Position numbers and translations under genes: made by a program
Virus record (IMG/VR): IMGVR_UViG_3300048032_000078
Location: 1-23,304 of that record
Source: a virus
DNA length: 23,304 bases
Strand: one strand, 5' to 3'
Notes under the pieces: generated by a model
The model's database searches: none
What the model saw: the letters and a program-made list of their open reading frames with translations, nothing else
What the model was told of the DNA's origin: nothing
Shown: piece by piece, positions 1 to 7,191 of the stretch
How positions within the stretch are numbered: position 1 is the stretch's first letter
Layout: each line of letters begins with the position of its first letter

Positions 1-112
1 GGATATATAATGACCTTTGCTAGTCTATTGAGTGTTATATCAGTGTATCATTATGCGTTGAGTCGTTTGTCCATTTGAGGCAAATGACGCGTTTTTGTGG
101 TTCACTTATTGA

Positions 113-231
113 ACACCTATTGAACACCTAGTAACACTCATCGACACTCAATAACACCTAGCAACACTCAGTAACACTCATCGACACTCAGCGACACTCA
201 GCGACATGTAGCAACACCTAGCAACACATTG
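113..231. repeat. Tandem decamer repeat array (about 12 units)
   Basis: About twelve head-to-tail units of 10 bp (the first is 11) start with ACAC, or ACAT in one unit, with consensus ACACYYAGYR. Examples are ACACTCAGCG twice in a row at 184-203, ACACCTAGCA at 154 and 214, and ACACTCATCG at 134 and 174. The + strand is strongly C/A rich. The 10-bp period is close to one helical turn, so equivalent bases lie on the same DNA face. T7 has arrays of imperfect short repeats just inside its terminal repeats, and iteron-type origins also look like this; which applies here is inference. Confidence 0.9.
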
Positions 232-246
232 TCTCTCTCTCTCTCT
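232..246. repeat. (TC)7 dinucleotide tract
   Basis: An uninterrupted polypyrimidine TC run directly follows the decamer array. Mirror-symmetric homopyrimidine tracts can form triplex DNA and are prone to slippage. No gene overlaps it. Confidence 0.9.
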
Positions 247-254
247 TATAATAA

Positions 255-275
255 CTTAGGCGGGTTTTTCCTAAG
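255..275. other. Hairpin CTTAGG / CCTAAG in the left non-coding region
   Basis: A perfect 6-bp inverted repeat (255-260 and 270-275) surrounds a 9-nt loop, CGGGTTTTT. The same hexamer pair recurs in the opposite order at 4721-4742, just before the RNA polymerase gene. A second weaker inverted repeat, TTTCTTT/AAAGAAA, lies at 329-351. The rest of 1-434 shows no supportable gene; it is probably the left-end control region, with host promoters I could not place with confidence. Confidence 0.5.
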
Positions 276-434
276 CGTCTCAAAAAAACTTTCAAGCTCT
301 AAGCCAGTAAACAAGCGGCCTCCGAGACTTTCTTTAATTATTTAAAAGAAAAAGCTTGCACGCATGTATTTGTTTCTATTGATTTCTTTCCATCGAAAGC
401 ATGACGCCGCCGAAAAACACAAATCAAACTTACA

Positions 435-539
435 ATGAATACCACACAGAAAACACTCAATGCTCTCATTTACACCCTAGGCGTATTACTCGCGGGCTCC
501 TTAGGCGCTTTGCTTATGTTCCTAGTCATTGACGTCTAA
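435..539 (+). CDS. 34-aa predicted single-pass membrane peptide
   Basis: ATG to TAA, 34 residues. A polar start (MNTTQKT) is followed by a hydrophobic stretch from about residue 9 to 32 (ALIYTLGVLLAGSLGALLMF) that fits one transmembrane helix. The leader CAAATCAAACTTACA before the ATG resembles the leader repeat before the next gene, which supports real translation. No family is recognised. Small membrane peptides in the left end of T7-like phages often interfere with host envelope functions, but nothing here shows that. Its shortness is the main reason for doubt. Confidence 0.5.
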   Translation: MNTTQKTLNALIYTLGVLLAGSLGALLMFLVIDV

Positions 540-590
540 TTCAATCAAACTTAATACAAATACACGTTAATTCAATCAAACTTAATACAA
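537..590. repeat. Perfect 23-bp direct repeat with 31-bp period
   Basis: The 23-bp sequence beginning TAATTCAATCAAACTTAATA occurs at 537-559 and again at 568-590. A shortened version (AATCAAACTTA) precedes the ATG at 435. It looks like a tandem duplication of a 31-bp leader segment, about three helical turns. A TTGACG hexamer at 529-534, 17 bp before TAATAC at 552, could form a weak host-type promoter overlapping the first copy. Confidence 0.8.
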
Positions 591-603
591 CCACATTAAA
601 AAC

Positions 604-867
604 ATGAAAATTACAACAAACAATCACTACCGCGATCTTTTAACTGAATACGATCTAACATCAAAAGAGCTAGAATCATTCGACTACTTAGAAGACGGCG
701 AGGGTTCATTCATTCGATACAGAGGCCGCGTATGGGAGCTTGGCGAATTCACCCGCACCGAAATAGAAGATTGGGACGGCATCAGTTCAGACACTTATTT
801 CAGCGGTGCAGTTATTAAACTTTCTGAAGACGGCGAGACCGTAAAGGTCGGCTACGTTTACTCTTAA
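604..867 (+). CDS. 87-aa early-region protein of unknown function
   Basis: An acidic, soluble-looking protein of 87 residues with no membrane segment or signal peptide. The central part (EDGEGSFIRYRGRVWELGEF) reads like a beta-strand-rich domain. It starts at an ATG with the A-rich leader CCACATTAAAAAC and no Shine-Dalgarno, like most genes here. It sits in the cluster of very small genes at the left end, where T7-like phages keep host-takeover functions. I recognise no family and assign no function. Codon use and good spacing to the next gene make it a credible gene. Confidence 0.7.
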   Translation: MKITTNNHYRDLLTEYDLTSKELESFDYLEDGEGSFIRYRGRVWELGEFTRTEIEDWDGISSDTYFSGAVIKLSEDGETVKVGYVYS

Positions 868-905
868 TCAATAAAACACAAATAAAACCACAAATAAAAC
901 ACATC
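868..905. repeat. A-rich leader made of repeated CAAATAAAAC units
   Basis: The gap between two small genes consists of three near-identical units (CAATAAAACA, CAAATAAAAC, CACAAATAAAAC) ending in ACATC before the ATG at 906. It is probably an untranslated leader for non-SD initiation. Confidence 0.6.
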
Positions 906-1139
906 ATGAAACCTACAGCACAATCAATTCGCGAAAGCCTAGCACTCGGCCCTTATTTCTTCTCTAAAGACACGCTCAGATTCTTCGGGCAAACCATGCA
1001 TTCATTCAAAGTCGAATGGCACGACAAAGAGCAAGGCATTATCCGCCTATTCGCTCCCATGAAAAGCGACGGCAAGCGCGTAGGCACTACTGAGCGCCTC
1101 ATTGACGTTTCAGACCCCGCCAACTTTAAAGAAGTATAA
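906..1139 (+). CDS. 77-aa early-region protein of unknown function
   Basis: 77 residues, ATG start with an ACACATC leader and no SD. It is basic to neutral, with several aromatic residues in a compact core (YFFSKDTLRFFGQ, then FKVEWHDKEQGIIRLF) that suggests a small folded beta-rich protein. No signal peptide, membrane helix or known motif is visible. It is followed within 20 bp by a GC-rich hairpin that probably ends the first small-gene transcript. Function is unknown. Confidence 0.7.
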   Translation: MKPTAQSIRESLALGPYFFSKDTLRFFGQTMHSFKVEWHDKEQGIIRLFAPMKSDGKRVGTTERLIDVSDPANFKEV

Positions 1140-1150
1140 CCTATAACCAG

Positions 1151-1177
1151 CCCCGTAGTTTAACCGCTACGGGGTTT
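1151..1177 (+). terminator. Probable intrinsic terminator
   Basis: The stem CCCCGTAG / CTACGGGG (8 bp, perfect) has the loop TTTAACCG and is followed by only three T residues, then CGGGG. It is a strong hairpin but a weak U tract, so attenuation or an RNA processing site is also possible. Confidence 0.6.
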
Positions 1178-1258
1178 CGGGGTGCAAGGGTAACACTTAC
1201 TACTTGCAACACATTAAAACGCCTTTAAGGGGCAATAAAACGAAACTAAATACATATC

Positions 1259-1498
1259 ATGAAAACATATATTACAGCCACATTTGAAAATGGTGACACT
1301 ATAAAAACTGAAATTAAGGCAACGCCGCGTGAAGCCACCGCTTACTATTACGGGAAGGTTTTTAACCTTGGCGCCGAAGAGGATAATTTGCAAAGATGCG
1401 TATCTGTTATCACTTCACCTGAACCAAGTAGCAATTGCACCTTTGAGGATTCTTTAAACCAATCTAAAGACGCCGCGGGTAAACTAGCGCGTGTTTAA
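1259..1498 (+). CDS. 79-aa early-region protein of unknown function
   Basis: 79 residues, ATG start preceded by AAATACATATC without an SD. The N-terminal third (MKTYITATFENGDTIKTEIK) looks like a two-stranded beta hairpin, and the TPREATAYYYGKVFNLG segment like an amphipathic helix. It contains two cysteines but no metal-binding pattern. It lies 120 bp beyond the hairpin at 1151, so it may begin a new transcript. No family recognised. Confidence 0.65.
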   Translation: MKTYITATFENGDTIKTEIKATPREATAYYYGKVFNLGAEEDNLQRCVSVITSPEPSSNCTFEDSLNQSKDAAGKLARV

Positions 1499-1504
1499 AT
1501 CAAG

Positions 1505-1811
1505 CAAACCGCCGCACATAAACCACACATAACAAGTTTGCGGATCTTTCAAACCGCCACACAATAAATACTATGGACAAACAAACCGCCGCACATAAAC
1601 GCTTCCAAGCGTACTATCTAGACTACCTTCTCAACTATCAAAGCATCGGTAGCTATGCCGCCTCTCACGGGCTCACTTATGAAACCGCCAAGTATCGCAT
1701 TGAGACAGGCGAACGGGTGCACTTGTCACAAACTGTGACCACCTTGTGACACACTGGCCGCCACAGGGCTTGCTTTCTTTTAGATAAACAAACCGCCACA
1801 CATAAACCGCC
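1505..1811 (+). repeat. Dispersed leader repeats CAAACCGCC-R-CACATAAA
   Basis: The sequence CAAACCGCCGCACATAAAC occurs at 1505 and 1582, with one change (G to A) at 1789; a shorter relative lies at 1550. They precede or overlap the starts of the small genes at 1573 and 1812. They belong to a wider family of twelve exact AAACCGCC octamers between 1506 and 3231, all on the + strand. Confidence 0.85.
1573..1749 (+). CDS. 58-aa putative helix-turn-helix protein
   Basis: ATG to TGA, 58 residues. The segment at about residues 24-48 (SIGSYAASHGLTYETAKYR) has the spacing of a helix-turn-helix: a first helix with two alanines, a turn with HGL, then a second helix TYETAKYR. This suggests sequence-specific DNA binding, perhaps a repressor, antirepressor or excisionase-like regulator near the integrase. 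That role is inference, and no family was matched. The gene overlaps one AAACCGCC octamer at its start and another inside. No SD; leader CACAATAAATACT. Confidence 0.55.
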   Translation: MDKQTAAHKRFQAYYLDYLLNYQSIGSYAASHGLTYETAKYRIETGERVHLSQTVTTL

Positions 1812-1985
1812 ATGAAAGACATCACCGAACGCCTAAACCTAGCACGTATGCTTATACGGAACGCCATTGGTTCCCATCAAGGGACACCTGAAACCGCCGC
1901 AAGGTACGCTATAAGACAGCTAGACCTACCAAGCGACGTTGAACAATCACTCATTCAATACGCAACACAAACCGCCAACAAATAA
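1812..1985 (+). CDS. 57-aa protein of unknown function
   Basis: ATG to TAA, 57 residues, mostly helical in appearance (KDITERLNLARMLIRNAIG, then TAARYAIRQLDL). The ATG follows directly on an AAACCGCC octamer, with CACATAAA just upstream, like its neighbour. Two more octamers lie inside the gene (1891, 1969). No motif or membrane segment. A small helical regulator or recombination accessory protein is possible, but nothing in the sequence proves it. Confidence 0.5.
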   Translation: MKDITERLNLARMLIRNAIGSHQGTPETAARYAIRQLDLPSDVEQSLIQYATQTANK

Positions 1986-1992
1986 CACACAT

Positions 1993-2214
1993 ATGACACC
2001 ACTACACGCACGACCTAAAGCTTACCGCAACCTCCACAACGCCCGCCGCGTATCAAACCGCGGGGGCAAATCAGAAGCTACACTCGATAGAGAATATAAT
2101 AAAGAAACAGCCAAGCTTATTGACGAAGGCTGGAAAGCTTTCTGGGAGAAGCGCGGGTTAAGCAAACCGCCCTACGTATCAGACAGACAGATAGGTGTCT
2201 TCGATACGTTATAA
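1993..2214 (+). CDS. 73-aa basic protein of unknown function
   Basis: I place the start at the ATG at 1993 rather than the upstream in-frame ATG at 1939. This avoids overlapping the previous gene and puts AACACACAT immediately before it, matching the other leaders. The product has 73 residues with a strongly basic first half (HARPKAYRNLHNARRVSNRGG), suggesting nucleic-acid contact, and a helical second half containing EGWKAFWEKRG. No recognised domain. It is the last small gene before the integrase control region. Confidence 0.6.
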   Translation: MTPLHARPKAYRNLHNARRVSNRGGKSEATLDREYNKETAKLIDEGWKAFWEKRGLSKPPYVSDRQIGVFDTL

Positions 2215-2400
2215 CATCACATGAGGCAGTATGTCGCAAAATGATACCTTCTGTTGCACTTGATGCACGTGCCTAGAAAGATAGGTTAGCTCAAACATAT
2301 TCAAAGAATCGAAGATTTGAATATCTAAAGGGAGGATTCACAAAACGCATTTATGCAATAATGTACTACCCAAACAGACACACACACGAAAGAATAGAAG
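2215..2400 (+). promoter_or_regulatory. Integrase upstream region with 9-bp inverted repeat
   Basis: This 186-bp gap has no convincing gene. It contains the perfect inverted repeat ATATTCAAA (2297-2305) / TTTGAATAT (2316-2324) with a 10-nt centre, a plausible operator or integrase arm-type site. A purine run, AAAGGGAGG, at 2327-2335 lies too far upstream of the integrase start to be its ribosome site. A 28-codon reading frame from 2361 overlaps the integrase but is not supported. Confidence 0.45.
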
Positions 2401-3423
2401 ATGAGTATAAGAAAGAGTGGGAAAAACGACAACAAGTTCATGGCTGACTTCATGGTCAAAGGCGTAAGATACCGCCGCCAATGGCCTACCTATGAGGAAG
2501 CAGCCGCGTGGGAGTCAGAGCTAAAAAAGAGAATACGCCTAGGGATACCCTACACGGAACTCTTGGAAGGCACAGGTGACTTCATCACATTAGGCGAGCT
2601 AGCCGACAAGACGATGATACGTTATTGGGAGGGAACCGCCAACGAAAGCACCATGCGTTCCAACGTAAAGATTGTTCTTGATCACTATGGACAAGGCTAT
2701 GACGTCTCTCAGCTAGACGTTGCGGCAGTGGACACCCTCATCTTTGCCCTAGAGAAGAAGGGGCTGGCAAAGGCTACTATAAACCGCCGCCTATCTTGCC
2801 TGTCTAAGATCCTCACCTTCGGGGTAGACCGTGGGTTCCTTACACACAAGCCTAAGATAGAACAGAAGAAGCTCTCCAACACTCGCATGAGGTTCCTTAC
2901 AGAAGAAGAAGAGTATGAGATCGTGGACGCGCTCGAAGCCTCTGGAAGGGATGACTTCGCGAGGTTCTTTGAATGGCAAATTGATACAGGTATGCGACCT
3001 ATAGAGGCTCGTCATATACCGCAAACCGCCGTGAGAGAAGATCCTGAGCACGGCTGGTTGGTTGATCTGAGCAAGACCAAGAACAACTATCCGCGCACCA
3101 TCTGGCTCACCGAGAGGGCTTACAAGGCTTACCTTGCTTTATCGGATGAACAGTTCCCATTTGCTAGGTTCACCGAAGCTAAGATAGCGAGCACTTGGAA
3201 GTTCATACGGGAAGCACTTAACGAAACCGCCGACAAGGACTTTGTGTTCTATCTTACAAGGCATACCTGCGCGTCGAGATTAGTGCAGCGTAACGTGCCT
3301 CTCCAAATCGTCAAAGAGTGGATGGGTCACCGTAACTTTGAGATGACCTTGAGGTACGCTAAGCTTACTCCCACTAATATGCTTGACGCAAGGAACGCCC
3401 TTCAACAATCTCACATACACTAA
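2401..3423 (+). CDS. int: Tyrosine recombinase (phage integrase)
   Basis: 340 residues, a usual size for phage integrases. The N-terminal part (about 1-60) is the arm-binding type, about 60-155 is the core-binding SAM-like domain, and the rest is catalytic. The catalytic set is complete: Arg199 in DTGMRPIEA, Lys225 or Lys227 in LSKTKNN, Arg287 in YLTRHT, His310 in WMGHRN, and the nucleophile Tyr319 in TLRYAKLT. The first position of the HxxR box is Tyr284 instead of His, a substitution often seen in active phage integrases. It should recombine attP with a host attB for lysogeny. Its place upstream of the RNA polymerase matches other temperate T7-like phages. Three AAACCGCC octamers lie inside the gene. 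Start ATG at 2401, no clear SD. Confidence 0.95.
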   Translation: MSIRKSGKNDNKFMADFMVKGVRYRRQWPTYEEAAAWESELKKRIRLGIPYTELLEGTGDFITLGELADKTMIRYWEGTANESTMRSNVKIVLDHYGQGYDVSQLDVAAVDTLIFALEKKGLAKATINRRLSCLSKILTFGVDRGFLTHKPKIEQKKLSNTRMRFLTEEEEYEIVDALEASGRDDFARFFEWQIDTGMRPIEARHIPQTAVREDPEHGWLVDLSKTKNNYPRTIWLTERAYKAYLALSDEQFPFARFTEAKIASTWKFIREALNETADKDFVFYLTRHTCASRLVQRNVPLQIVKEWMGHRNFEMTLRYAKLTPTNMLDARNALQQSHIH

Positions 3424-3581
3424 GCACTGCTTCGATTATTCCCTACAGCCGTAGCTAGACTACAACGCTAGGGGATACACTAACCAACAACGTGTCCTCA
3501 TTTAATTACATCTGAGGACACATAAACTCACGCACTCAAAGTTAAACAAGGGTTGATTTCGGGGGCGGGCAACTAAGCACT
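3424..3581 (+). promoter_or_regulatory. Integrase downstream region with inverted repeats; candidate attP
   Basis: This gap holds a compound hairpin around 3441-3473 (outer CCCTA/TAGGG, inner GTAG/CTAC) and a perfect 9-bp inverted repeat, GTGTCCTCA (3492-3500) / TGAGGACAC (3513-3521). The latter could be a U-tract-less terminator or a recombinase core. No tRNA 3'-end sequence was found that would mark attP. A G-rich stretch (TTTCGGGGGCGGGC) lies at about 3556 before the next gene. Confidence 0.4.
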
Positions 3582-3905
3582 ATGAAAAAACTAAGTGACA
3601 CACTAACGGAACTAGGGATTGCATTCAGCTTCCCTATCGAGATTATGGAAGCCAATGACAGAGTGACCTACTTCGAGGACTGTGATGGCTTCTGTCGTAA
3701 GTATGAGTATGATACCAATGGTGAACAGACCTACTATGAGGACAGCGATGGCTATTGGTGTAAGTATGAATACGACGCCAATGGTCGTCCAACTTACTAC
3801 GAGGACAGCAAGGGCGTAAAGAAAGGAACACCTAAGTCATCTAAGACCTGCGAAGGTAAGGTAATCGAGGTTGACGGAATTAAATACAAACTAAAAGCAC
3901 TATGA
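3582..3905 (+). CDS. YD-like repeat protein, copy 1
   Basis: 107 residues, acidic. After a helical N-terminus (MKKLSDTLTELGI) it carries a 21-residue repeat starting at Thr29, Thr50 and Thr71 with the pattern TYYEDSxGYWxKYEYDxNGxx; the third copy is truncated. Such tyrosine/aspartate-rich repeats, resembling RHS/YD repeats, occur in many phage proteins of unknown role and probably stack as beta hairpins. The N-terminal 35 residues are nearly identical to those of the gene at 4136, so the two are paralogues. The TGA overlaps the next start (ATGA). It lies between integrase and RNA polymerase, so it is early or lysogeny-associated. Function unknown. Confidence 0.75.
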   Translation: MKKLSDTLTELGIAFSFPIEIMEANDRVTYFEDCDGFCRKYEYDTNGEQTYYEDSDGYWCKYEYDANGRPTYYEDSKGVKKGTPKSSKTCEGKVIEVDGIKYKLKAL

Positions 3906-4135: not shown

Positions 4136-4504
4136 ATGAAACCACTAAGCGACACACTAACAGAACTAGGGATTGATTGTGCGTTCCCTATCGAGATTAT
4201 GGAAGCCAATGACAGAGTCACCTACTTCGAGGACTGTGACGACTACTGGGAGAGGTACGAGCGTGATGTCAAGGGGCGGCCAACTTACCACGAAGACAGT
4301 AATGGCTTCTGGCAGAAGTGGAAGCGTAATGCAGATGGTGACGTTCTTTATTATGAGGACAGCACAGGCGTAAAGAAAGGCATACCTGAATCATTAACCA
4401 AACCACTAACCGAATCGAAGGAGCGTTGTGCCTTCTGCGATAAGCCCGATGTGTACCTCAAGGGTCTCTGCCCTGTGTGTTTCGAGGATCACTACGGGAA
4501 TTAG
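4136..4504 (+). CDS. YD-like repeat protein, copy 2, with C-terminal zinc-ribbon motif
   Basis: 122 residues. Residues 1-35 match the protein at 3582 almost exactly, and the repeat region (periods at residues 29, 50 and 71) is diverged. It then adds a C-terminal extension containing Cys98-x2-Cys101-x10-Cys112-x2-Cys115 with His119, a likely zinc-binding ribbon absent from copy 1. The DNA from about 3588 to 3686 and 4142 to 4240 is nearly identical, so the pair arose by recent duplication and one copy gained or lost the finger. The zinc ribbon suggests nucleic-acid or protein binding; the biological role is unknown. Its stop codon overlaps the first copy of the 23-bp repeat at 4501. Confidence 0.75.
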   Translation: MKPLSDTLTELGIDCAFPIEIMEANDRVTYFEDCDDYWERYERDVKGRPTYHEDSNGFWQKWKRNADGDVLYYEDSTGVKKGIPESLTKPLTESKERCAFCDKPDVYLKGLCPVCFEDHYGN

Positions 4505-4770
4505 GTGACAAATCGCTGACAAAGTTTGTCAAAATAGCTAAAACAAAGGAAAGTGCGAGGTGACAATTAAAAGAAATTATCGTTGCAAATCAATACGTTG
4601 ACATAGCTTCAAAAAAAGTTAAGATATTGCTCATGGGATAGTAAATGTCTTTATTGTCACCTCTAGCCGTAACCCTATTGAAATATAAGCATTTTTAAAC
4701 AAACACTTATCCGTTTTGTTCCTAAGTATTTATTTGCTTAGGTGACAAATCACTGACAAATAAATTGACT
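4501..4770 (+). promoter_or_regulatory. Repeat-rich control region upstream of the RNA polymerase
   Basis: This AT-rich stretch is bounded by a 23-bp direct repeat with one mismatch, TTAGGTGACAAATCRCTGAC plus AAA, at 4501-4523 and 4738-4760. Inside are a palindrome GACAAA-G-TTTGTC (4518-4530), an 11-bp inverted repeat GAGGTGACAAT (4557-4567) / ATTGTCACCTC (4653-4663), and a hairpin CCTAAG (4721-4726) / CTTAGG (4737-4742). GGTGACAA recurs in direct and inverted form, as operator half-sites do. A possible host promoter is TTGACA at 4598-4603, 16 bp before TAAGAT at 4620. Regulator binding, an origin, or both are possible. Confidence 0.7.
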
Positions 4771-7191
4771 ATGGACACGCAGCTCACCCAAGACGAACTC
4801 AACACTGACATGACCACCGTAGGCGTGGGACGCTACCGTAATAAGGTAGAGGGAGCACGTGCTCGTGGTATGGAGAGTGAGACATCTTATGGTCAGCGTT
4901 TAATACGTGGTGCGTTACCTTCATATATCAAGGCTATTGATGACGTAAAAACAAAGTGGCGTGGATTTAAGAACAATGCACGGTGGCAACTAGACCTCCT
5001 AGAGATGCCCTCCGAGAAGATTGGGTTCCTTGTTATCCGTACTGTTTTAGACCAGCTTACACAGAACTCTAAGATGACCGCTATGTGTACCAAGGTGGGC
5101 AACGTCATCGACTACCAGCGTCGCTCCGAGCACCTCGTACGCAACAACCCTAAGGGTGAAGGGATTGTTCTAGGGGCTACCCGTAAGAGTGGCTGGCAAG
5201 CTACCAAGAACCACATCCGTCTAAGTACCAAGCACGAGGTAGAAAAAGGGCTCATGGAAGAGATCCCGTCTTGGACACGTAGAGACATAGCAGCAACAGG
5301 ACTTAACCTTGTAGAACTCCTTCGGGATGTCACAGGGATTATTGAGTACAGGTTCATTACTGATACAGGCAGACGCAACCCTACAAGGTACGTCACAGCC
5401 TCCCCAGAGACTCTCAAGTGGATTGATGAGTTCAACTACCACAAGGAAATCATAAGCCCCTTCTGGCTACCTACAGTGGATACACCGATGGAGTGGAAGA
5501 ACGTATGGGAAGGTGGCTACAAGACAGAAGAGACAGACCTCCCAAAGCTTCCATTCATCAAGTCAACCAACATGGACTTCCTCCGAGGCATCGAAGGTAA
5601 GATTGAAGAGCCTATGGAGGCTTGTAACCTTATCCAGCAGACACCTTGGAAGATTAACGAAGAAGTCCTGAAGACAATGCAGTGGGCTTGGAAGAACTCC
5701 GTAAAGGTCGGTGGGCTTCCTAGTCGTGACGATGAGGTGATGCCTGACATCCCTGACGACTTCCACGAAAACAAACTAAGTAACCTCCAGTGGCGTACGA
5801 TGGCCTCAGGTGTTCACAAGCGTAACATGAGCACACGCTCAAGACGCCTGTTGGTAGCCAAGGTGCTTTACCTAGCAGAGAAGCTTACAGATAGTCGGTT
5901 CTTCTATCCATCTCACTGCGACTTCCGAGGTCGTGTATATAACATCCCTGCCTTCCTAGGTATCCAAGGCCCTGATATGTGCCGTGGGTTGCTTCGGTTT
6001 GCTAGACCTCAACGTATTAAGACAGCAACAGACCGCAAGTGGTTAGCTATTCAAGGTGCTAACACTTGGGGCTACGATAAAGTCACACTCGACAAACGTG
6101 CTGAGTGGGCTGAGAACTTTTCCAAGGACGCTATCCGTATCGCAGCTAACCCTACCAAGGAGCTACTATGGACAGAAGCGGGTGACCCTTGGCAATTCCT
6201 TGCGTGGTGCTTTGAATGGGCAACGCTACAGAACACGGGTAAGCTAGATACCTTCCTCCCAGTGAATATGGATGCCACCAATAACGGACTCCAGATTCTT
6301 TCTATGCTTACCCGTGACCCCTACGGGATGACTGCTACGAATGTGTTACCTACAGACACACCAGCGGACATCTACGGGGTGGTCGCAAAACAAGCGGAGG
6401 TTATCCTTAAAGCACAAGCAGAGACTGGTGATGCTATCTCTAATGCTTGGGTCAACTTTGGTATCGACCGTAAGACAACCAAGAGACCCGTTATGTGTTA
6501 CTCGTATGGTCTTACCGAATACAGTAATCGCTTGTATATCTCTGACTGGTATGAAGACCAGATACACGGTGAGGGACGCACCAGACCCTTTGATGAGAAG
6601 GAGAAGTACCTTGCCATTCACGTGCTTGCTAAAGCCGTCTGGAAGGGTATCGAGAGTGTCCTAGAGAAGCCTAAGGAATGTATGAAGTGGTTCCAAGATT
6701 GTGCCGCTATACTTACTGAGGCTGAACTACCTGTGTCTTGGGTTACTCCTAGTGGCTTCCCTGTTCACCAGCAGTATTTCAACTTCACGAGTAAGAACAT
6801 CAAGACTTGGATTAGCGGAACAGCTACTCACATTCGTTTCCGTGAGAATGACGATAAGCTTTCCAAGGTACGCCAGCGTAACGGAGTGAGCCCTAACTTT
6901 GTTCACTCACTAGATGCTGCGGCTCTCCACAAGACAATCATCAAAGCCAACAAAGAGGAAGGAATCTATGACTTTGCATTTATCCACGACAGCTACGGAA
7001 CACACGCTACAGGATGCGAAGCTTTAAGTAAAAGTTTGCGAGATGTGTTTATTTCTACCTTTAGTGTTGACCTCCTTCGGGATTGGAAACATCAATTAGA
7101 ACAGCAATCGGGATTAGAACTTCCTGAGCCGCCAGAATATGGCACTGCTGACATCTCCCAAATTAAAAATAGCACGTATTTCTTCAGTTAG
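4771..7191 (+). CDS. Single-subunit (T7-type) DNA-directed RNA polymerase
   Basis: 806 residues from the ATG at 4771, preferred over a TTG two codons upstream; T7 RNA polymerase has 883. Palm and fingers motifs are all present: DFRGRVYN at about 384-391, the first catalytic Asp501 in NMDATNNGLQ, Lys571-Arg572 and Tyr579 in KRPVMCYSYG (equivalents of T7 Lys631 and Tyr639), VTPSGFPV, His712 in NFVHSLDAAA, and the second catalytic Asp740 in FIHDSYGTH. The enzyme should transcribe the phage middle and late genes from phage-specific promoters, which I could not identify. The C-terminus ends FFS rather than the FAFA foot of T7. It follows a repeat-rich control region and is separated by 53 bp from the SSB gene. 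Confidence 0.98.
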   Translation: MDTQLTQDELNTDMTTVGVGRYRNKVEGARARGMESETSYGQRLIRGALPSYIKAIDDVKTKWRGFKNNARWQLDLLEMPSEKIGFLVIRTVLDQLTQNSKMTAMCTKVGNVIDYQRRSEHLVRNNPKGEGIVLGATRKSGWQATKNHIRLSTKHEVEKGLMEEIPSWTRRDIAATGLNLVELLRDVTGIIEYRFITDTGRRNPTRYVTASPETLKWIDEFNYHKEIISPFWLPTVDTPMEWKNVWEGGYKTEETDLPKLPFIKSTNMDFLRGIEGKIEEPMEACNLIQQTPWKINEEVLKTMQWAWKNSVKVGGLPSRDDEVMPDIPDDFHENKLSNLQWRTMASGVHKRNMSTRSRRLLVAKVLYLAEKLTDSRFFYPSHCDFRGRVYNIPAFLGIQGPDMCRGLLRFARPQRIKTATDRKWLAIQGANTWGYDKVTLDKRAEWAENFSKDAIRIAANPTKELLWTEAGDPWQFLAWCFEWATLQNTGKLDTFLPVNMDATNNGLQILSMLTRDPYGMTATNVLPTDTPADIYGVVAKQAEVILKAQAETGDAISNAWVNFGIDRKTTKRPVMCYSYGLTEYSNRLYISDWYEDQIHGEGRTRPFDEKEKYLAIHVLAKAVWKGIESVLEKPKECMKWFQDCAAILTEAELPVSWVTPSGFPVHQQYFNFTSKNIKTWISGTATHIRFRENDDKLSKVRQRNGVSPNFVHSLDAAALHKTIIKANKEEGIYDFAFIHDSYGTHATGCEALSKSLRDVFISTFSVDLLRDWKHQLEQQSGLELPEPPEYGTADISQIKNSTYFFS

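Follow-up and report, generated by a model that had tools for sequence, protein, structure and literature searches.

A probable T7-type subterminal repeat cluster beside the predicted terminal repeat of marine, integrase-bearing T7-like phages

In T7, a cluster of about a dozen CCTAAAG units (positions 175-355) starts ~15 bp inward of the left terminal repeat (TR, 160 bp). It lies on an A/C-rich + strand, follows the order late genes, TR, array, early genes, and precedes the annotated promoter phiOL and the E. coli promoters A1-A3. T3 carries the same CCTAAAG heptamers in a less regular arrangement (p 0.09), and SP6 has a periodic cluster directly after its 174-bp TR. To our knowledge, the role of such TR-flanking short repeats is not settled in T7, and the open literature searched yielded no stated function for the T7 repeats. 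In the Yersinia T7-like fPS phages, 11-34 repeats lie between the left TR and P1, the first phage promoter, and duplication of the TR has been described as crucial in T3 and T7 (PMC5923468). For concatemers of T7, Chung et al. 1990 suggested a hairpin end (cited in PMC4925675), and LUZ100 has an annotated TR of 244 bp (PMC10134795).

The DNA analyzed here (the window, meaning the whole stretch) is an IMG/VR contig of 23.3 kb from a T7-like, integrase-bearing phage of a marine lineage. Besides the genes listed in Table 1, it encodes a T7-type SSB, endonuclease I, primase-helicase, family A polymerase, exonuclease and a T7-type portal. Other metagenomes yielded close relatives, with T7-type RNA polymerases (RNAPs) 91-100% identical. 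One of these, contig L001, is 99% identical to window 1-1558, contains an identical array and extends further left. Upstream of the junction, L001 encodes a T7-type large terminase (1946-3613; PF22530, E 2e-40) and then an 81-aa ORF; the small ORFs after the terminase end at 4531 and are followed by ~1 kb with no known gene except a 34-aa ORF. The early genes, the integrase and the T7-type RNAP lie downstream. The array sits in the non-coding late/early junction, with the terminase end on one side and the early end on the other, where the TR of a T7-like genome is expected.

Table 1. Positions of the main features in the window
Feature	Position	Strand	Basis or remark
Last 86 bp of the predicted ~197-bp direct TR	1-86	+	Edge signals, contig-end pile-up
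Inverted repeat CATTTG-AGG-CAAATG	72-86 (imperfect longer stem 62-88)	+	Flush with the predicted 3' end of the TR
Conserved element to the right of the predicted cut, ACGCGTTTTTG	87-97	+	Relatives CTGTGTTTTTG, GCGTGTTTTTG; LUZ100 CGCTTTTTC
Subterminal array (probable), 12 units, consensus AACACTCAGC, period 10	112-232	+	Unit starts, lag identity, Tandem Repeats Finder
(TC)7 tract	232-245	+	Retained in closest relatives only
CTTAGG-CGGGTTTTT-CCTAAG	255-275 (arms 255-260 and 270-275)	+	Kept portion is GGCGGGTTTTT
Conserved block AAGCGGCCTCCGAGACTTTC...AAAAGCTTGCA, between array and early genes	313-358	+	Relatives
Tyrosine integrase	2401-3423		PF00589
T7-type RNA polymerase	4765-7191		PF00940

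A first-pass annotation of this DNA had described twelve tandem decamers, followed by (TC)7, in gene-free DNA. The decamers and the tract were both borne out. Units start at 112, 123, 133, 143, 153, 163, 173, 183, 193, 203, 213 and 223, with a step of 10 bp throughout except for the first (11 bp), and the unit at 203 (GACATGTAGC) is a degenerate one. At lag 10, base identity was 0.69, compared with 0.30 +/- 0.04 in dinucleotide shuffles (z 8.7), and none of 500 shuffles was as high; Tandem Repeats Finder reported period 10 over 133-227. The T7 unit CCTAAAG and its period of 13 (z 8.7-9.1) are not matched, the units here being AACACTCAGC or AACACCTAGC with period 10. The near-exclusion of G claimed for the + strand holds in that G is low, but G is not excluded (13 of 115 bases, 11%). 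Helical phasing as the key property did not survive comparison: the period is 9-12 bp in relatives and 13 bp in T7, and with such a range strict phasing is not the point. A conserved ORF occupies 435-539, so the gene-free stretch is 1-434. This ORF of 34 aa is of membrane type, opens the early region, shares 31 of 34 residues with L002 and had no PHROG match. The CTTAGG/CCTAAG hairpin is present, but relatives do not keep it and retain GGCGGGTTTTT instead, and it was dropped as a conserved element. GGCGGGTTTTT (251-270, after the array) looks like the TR right-edge element GCGTGTTTTTG, and contigs L100 and L104 stop just ahead of it; because of this likeness and these ends, a second processing edge is conceivable.

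Window and L001 are identical over 1-923, with 14 differing sites clustered at 924-1041 and ~306 additional bases in L001 at window 1557 (window 924-1558; L001 6486-6793); the differences at 924-1558 are recent recombination in the early region. A close prophage was sought in sequenced genomes, where only distant T7-like RNAPs (identity 39% and below) were found.

The array had also been suggested to mark the inner edge of a terminal repeat, like the arrays of T7, and the edge signals and contig ends agree with this, T7's array having the same place. Based on three independent lines (the left-edge signal in L001, contig ends and the annotated TR end of LUZ100), we infer that the right edge of the TR falls between window positions 86 and 87. 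Contigs L099, L114, L083 and L089 stop at one homologous base, and the right end of G006 (37.9 kb), aligned on the following GTGTTTTTG, is 1 nt off this base. Five contig ends from different metagenomes fall within 1 nt, and one contig, G006, has both ends there; the chance of this coincidence is ~2e-6 under a uniform model, or 5e-5 with near-identical contigs counted once. The left end of G006 lies 1 nt inside the predicted left cut, its left and right copies over the TR are 95.7% identical across 186 bp aligned, and the left copy continues into TGCGTGTTTTTG from the very point at which the right copy stops. In LUZ100, the TR end given by the annotation, ..GGCCTTG/CGCTTTTTC (a slash marks the edge), falls at the same element as the right edge in the window. 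Further contigs end elsewhere in the junction, some within or at the far end of arrays, and for this reason contig ends alone are no proof of an edge; left-end contigs sought by pattern were mostly unrelated palindromes.

In records with an exact TR, the left edge is signalled by T[CG]TGA plus 7 nt, the record ends being TCTGAGTGACTA/TCTC in T7, TCTGAATGGGTA/TCTC in T3, TCTGAATGGTCA/CCTC in gh-1 and TTTTGG..TGTGAAGGGGTA/GCTA in Syn5, each with CCCCC ~20-25 nt past the edge. The L001 counterpart, TGTGACAGGTTA/TACG, has its signal at 4806-4817, outside the window itself, and is also accompanied by CCCCC. By the rule of these four phages, the TR of L001 would begin at 4818 and measure ~197 bp; its first 111 bp, absent from the window contig, are found at L001 4818-4928. 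LUZ100 and BB8 have the same block, with the edge 19 and 13 nt after a TGA-like motif. The annotated left end of LUZ100 is 12 nt farther in than the rule gives and BB8 deviates too, and therefore the exact left-edge base may be off by ~12 nt. The whole block, TTTTGGT..AAAAATSTGA..GTATACG..CCCCC, follows the last late gene, is common to Roseobacter phage CRP-125, pelagiphages and S45-C18, and is present in a single copy in each genome among the tested long contigs and records. A phage promoter in this block upstream of the TR was ruled out by the single occurrence.

As in T7-type TR packaging, the large terminase is encoded at the late end and the left-edge signal is followed by CCCCC. With the right edge between 86 and 87, the array would start ~25 bp into unique DNA inward of the left TR; the subterminal repeats of T7, too, are short tandem units that lie in unique DNA immediately inward of its left TR.

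Comparison among related phages, proposed earlier as a check, revealed similar arrays in which unit, period and number shift quickly. A significant 10-12 bp period was found in 18 of 20 tested clade loci with ACAC-type units, the exceptions being L085 and L018; the units vary (GGACACTCACA, CACTCAGCGTC, GACACACTGAG; periods 10-12) and always lie right of the TR edge. In array-bearing clade members and T7, the + strand passes from G+T-rich to A+C-rich at this edge, with A+C at 0.31-0.49 (TR) and 0.57-0.72 (array) for the clade and at 0.35 and 0.72, respectively, for T7. The G content of arrays in relatives reaches 29%. As read from these sequences, place, strand bias and an ACAC/CACTC core are kept, and period, exact unit and number are free. 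In cousins with ~70% terminase identity the array is absent or unclear, and TR signals with no clear array were found in L033, L136, L138, LUZ100, gh-1 and Syn5; the array is therefore not essential for TR-type packaging generally.

Among described phages, the SP6 cluster differs from the present one by its period of 12, its CCTTAGT-type units and its lack of A/C bias (A+C 0.42). Pelagiphages Eistla, HTVC142P, HTVC031P and HTVC168P have ACAC-type units at the matching position, preceded by the same block and by a GTTTTTTT element, but their clusters are shorter and irregular, with period 9 significant in HTVC142P and HTVC031P and not in Eistla or HTVC168P. The uncultured phage MedDCM-OCT-S45-C18 (Ayaqvirus) has a short cluster, AACACAACCTAAAGC, behind ACCTGTGTTTTTG, including the exact T7 heptamer CCTAAAG, but with few copies and a weak period of 11 (p 0.003). 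The fPS phages, compared by their published description, are alike in repeat place and differ in being lytic and enterobacterial. The array belongs to a class of elements already known, here in a novel form and in a lineage not previously described to carry it; the unit sequence, the scattered inverted copies beside the right TR and the hairpin flush with the TR end are new.

Place, periodicity, homology within the clade and the match to TR edge signals, all of them sequence-based, make it very likely that the array is by identity and position a T7-type subterminal cluster. That it is such a cluster in a linear genome of the T7 type, sits at the concatemer junction and serves concatemer processing is probable as a whole; a terminase or TR-processing role, taken separately, is proposed tentatively, at somewhat less than an even chance. 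The array would act during concatemer processing, in which terminase would have two tasks: cutting the left edge at TGTGA-N7/ and, at the AAATG/ edge, separating the shared TR and duplicating it. Repeats beside the TR could offer many putative cooperative docking sites for a small-terminase/maturase complex, and with many docking sites the repeat number and exact unit would be able to drift while position and strand bias are kept. Alternatively, the repeats may keep the strands separated, which would allow priming by fold-back at the hairpin on the TR edge. Folding of the TR back onto the array itself was ruled out, as base pairing between them did not exceed what composition gives (mean z -0.7 in 30 phages; Eistla alone strong); folding of window 1-290 gave only z -1.1.

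It is also conceivable, if unlikely, that the array is a neutral slippage product at the TR edge, tolerated as non-coding DNA. The fast change of unit sequence, period and number between relatives would follow from slippage, as would the copy number of 11-34 in fPS phages (PMC5923468). However, position, strand bias and the ACAC/CACTC core are held across many diverged relatives, and analogous clusters are present in pelagiphages, S45-C18, T7 and SP6.

A hairpin near the TR edge was detected at p<0.1 in 10 of 24 relatives (2.4 expected), a trend which is suggestive only because some sequences are related; such a hairpin would fit the hairpin end of T7 concatemers, or else a terminator placed immediately ahead of the T run. 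The clade's own array unit recurs in inverted orientation in the right arm, in the flank that precedes the TR. Summed over 30 phages including outgroups, inverted copies cover 628 bases compared with 215 in shuffles, and direct copies 230; these counts come from related loci and are not independent, and the right-flank copies are few and scattered in most phages. In L001, 17 bases of the right-arm flank are covered (top 3.3% of windows), and relatives are clearer. T7 and T3 differ in having direct right-arm copies (51 versus 13.5 and 57 versus 17). T7-type companion copies of the same orientation inside the right TR were not seen here, the flank copies being inverted. An array near the right end, looked for as a check on the initial reading, is represented by unit copies beside the right TR, but these are scattered, inverted and few in L001. 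An improbable extension is that the marine lineage has a polar, mirror-arranged end signal, in which the same motif would be met on reading inward from either virion end and would act together with a self-priming hairpin at the TR 3' end to duplicate the TR or protect the ends, and the unit sequence would drift with polarity kept.

Slightly less probable still is a transcriptional element, in which a C/A-rich leader lacking structure would provide a rut or antitermination region to RNA that is read rightward across the junction. The low G, the C-richness and (TC)7 are in line with it, as are an RNA fold no better than shuffles (z +0.94) and the terminator-like hairpin and T run at the TR edge. 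Nevertheless, no sigma70 match was found in 1-700, the T7 cluster lies upstream of annotated rightward early promoters, arrays of relatives hold as much as 29% G, and inverted unit copies across the TR would be needless for one RNA signal. Lower again in probability is end protection by a polar Chi-like motif, read inward from both virion ends and stopping host or phage exonuclease. Inverted right-flank copies in the array-bearing clade mean that both ends can show the same polarity inward, and the 3'-ended strand is G/T-rich; against this, the T7 and T3 copies are direct, Chi needs no clustered periodic copies, and the right-flank counts have the limits of relatedness and scatter given above. 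An iteron replication origin or a partition or maintenance site of a lysogenic, plasmid-like form, both raised in the first-pass annotation, is very improbable: tandem decamers in non-coding DNA and an AT-rich stretch following the TC tract would suit it, but the T7-type replication set is encoded, the proteins scanned (small ORFs partly covered; the window is part of the genome) gave no Rep domain and no ParA/ParB-type Pfam match, and the best candidate for attP is not at the array but downstream of the integrase.

This candidate attP core (window 3475-3522) comprises 48 bp of non-coding DNA that are shared without a difference by L002 and L085; its inverted arms are GTGTCCTCA-12-TGAGGACAC. 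The array was ruled out as attP, since the conserved core with inverted arms is located here. The core had no match in an Opitutia MAG genome. L170, a contig binned in an Opitutia (Verrucomicrobiota) MAG, encodes an integrase and a T7-like RNAP (39% identical) and contains the 5' portion of a tRNA-Leu-like gene twice (1465-1500 and 2555-2595); for this distant relative, the findings suggest attachment at a tRNA and a host among the Verrucomicrobiota. Before the RNAP gene, TGACAAATCRCTGACAAA sites at window 4506-4523 and 4743-4760 flank a sigma70-like promoter (TTGACA-17-TAAGAT, ~4598-4626), and an inverted copy is found within the TR near its left end (L001 4869-4888); these may be the operators of a repressor that governs the RNAP switch in a temperate T7-like phage. 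A phage-promoter motif search of the window's intergenic regions gave nothing convincing. In L002 (5725-5797), L095 (6867-6939), L114 (3688-3763) and L011 (478-552), but not in L001, the interval from the last late gene to the TR holds tRNA genes; their anticodons include TAT (Ile), TGT (Thr) and TTA, the last of which would decode a UAA stop. An ARAGORN tRNA-Met call at window 1002-1096 (- strand) falls within an ORF (906-1139) and is probably a false positive. Paralogous ORFs of YYEDSDGYW-type repeats (window 3582-3905 and 4136-4504) differ in copy number between close relatives (e.g., L003).

These results give a way to predict the physical ends of metagenomic T7-like phages from sequence alone, by T[CG]TGA-N7/ on one side and AAATG/CGCGTTTTTG on the other. 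The survey provides ~20 natural variants of TR-flanking repeats and makes the question of the repeat role testable.
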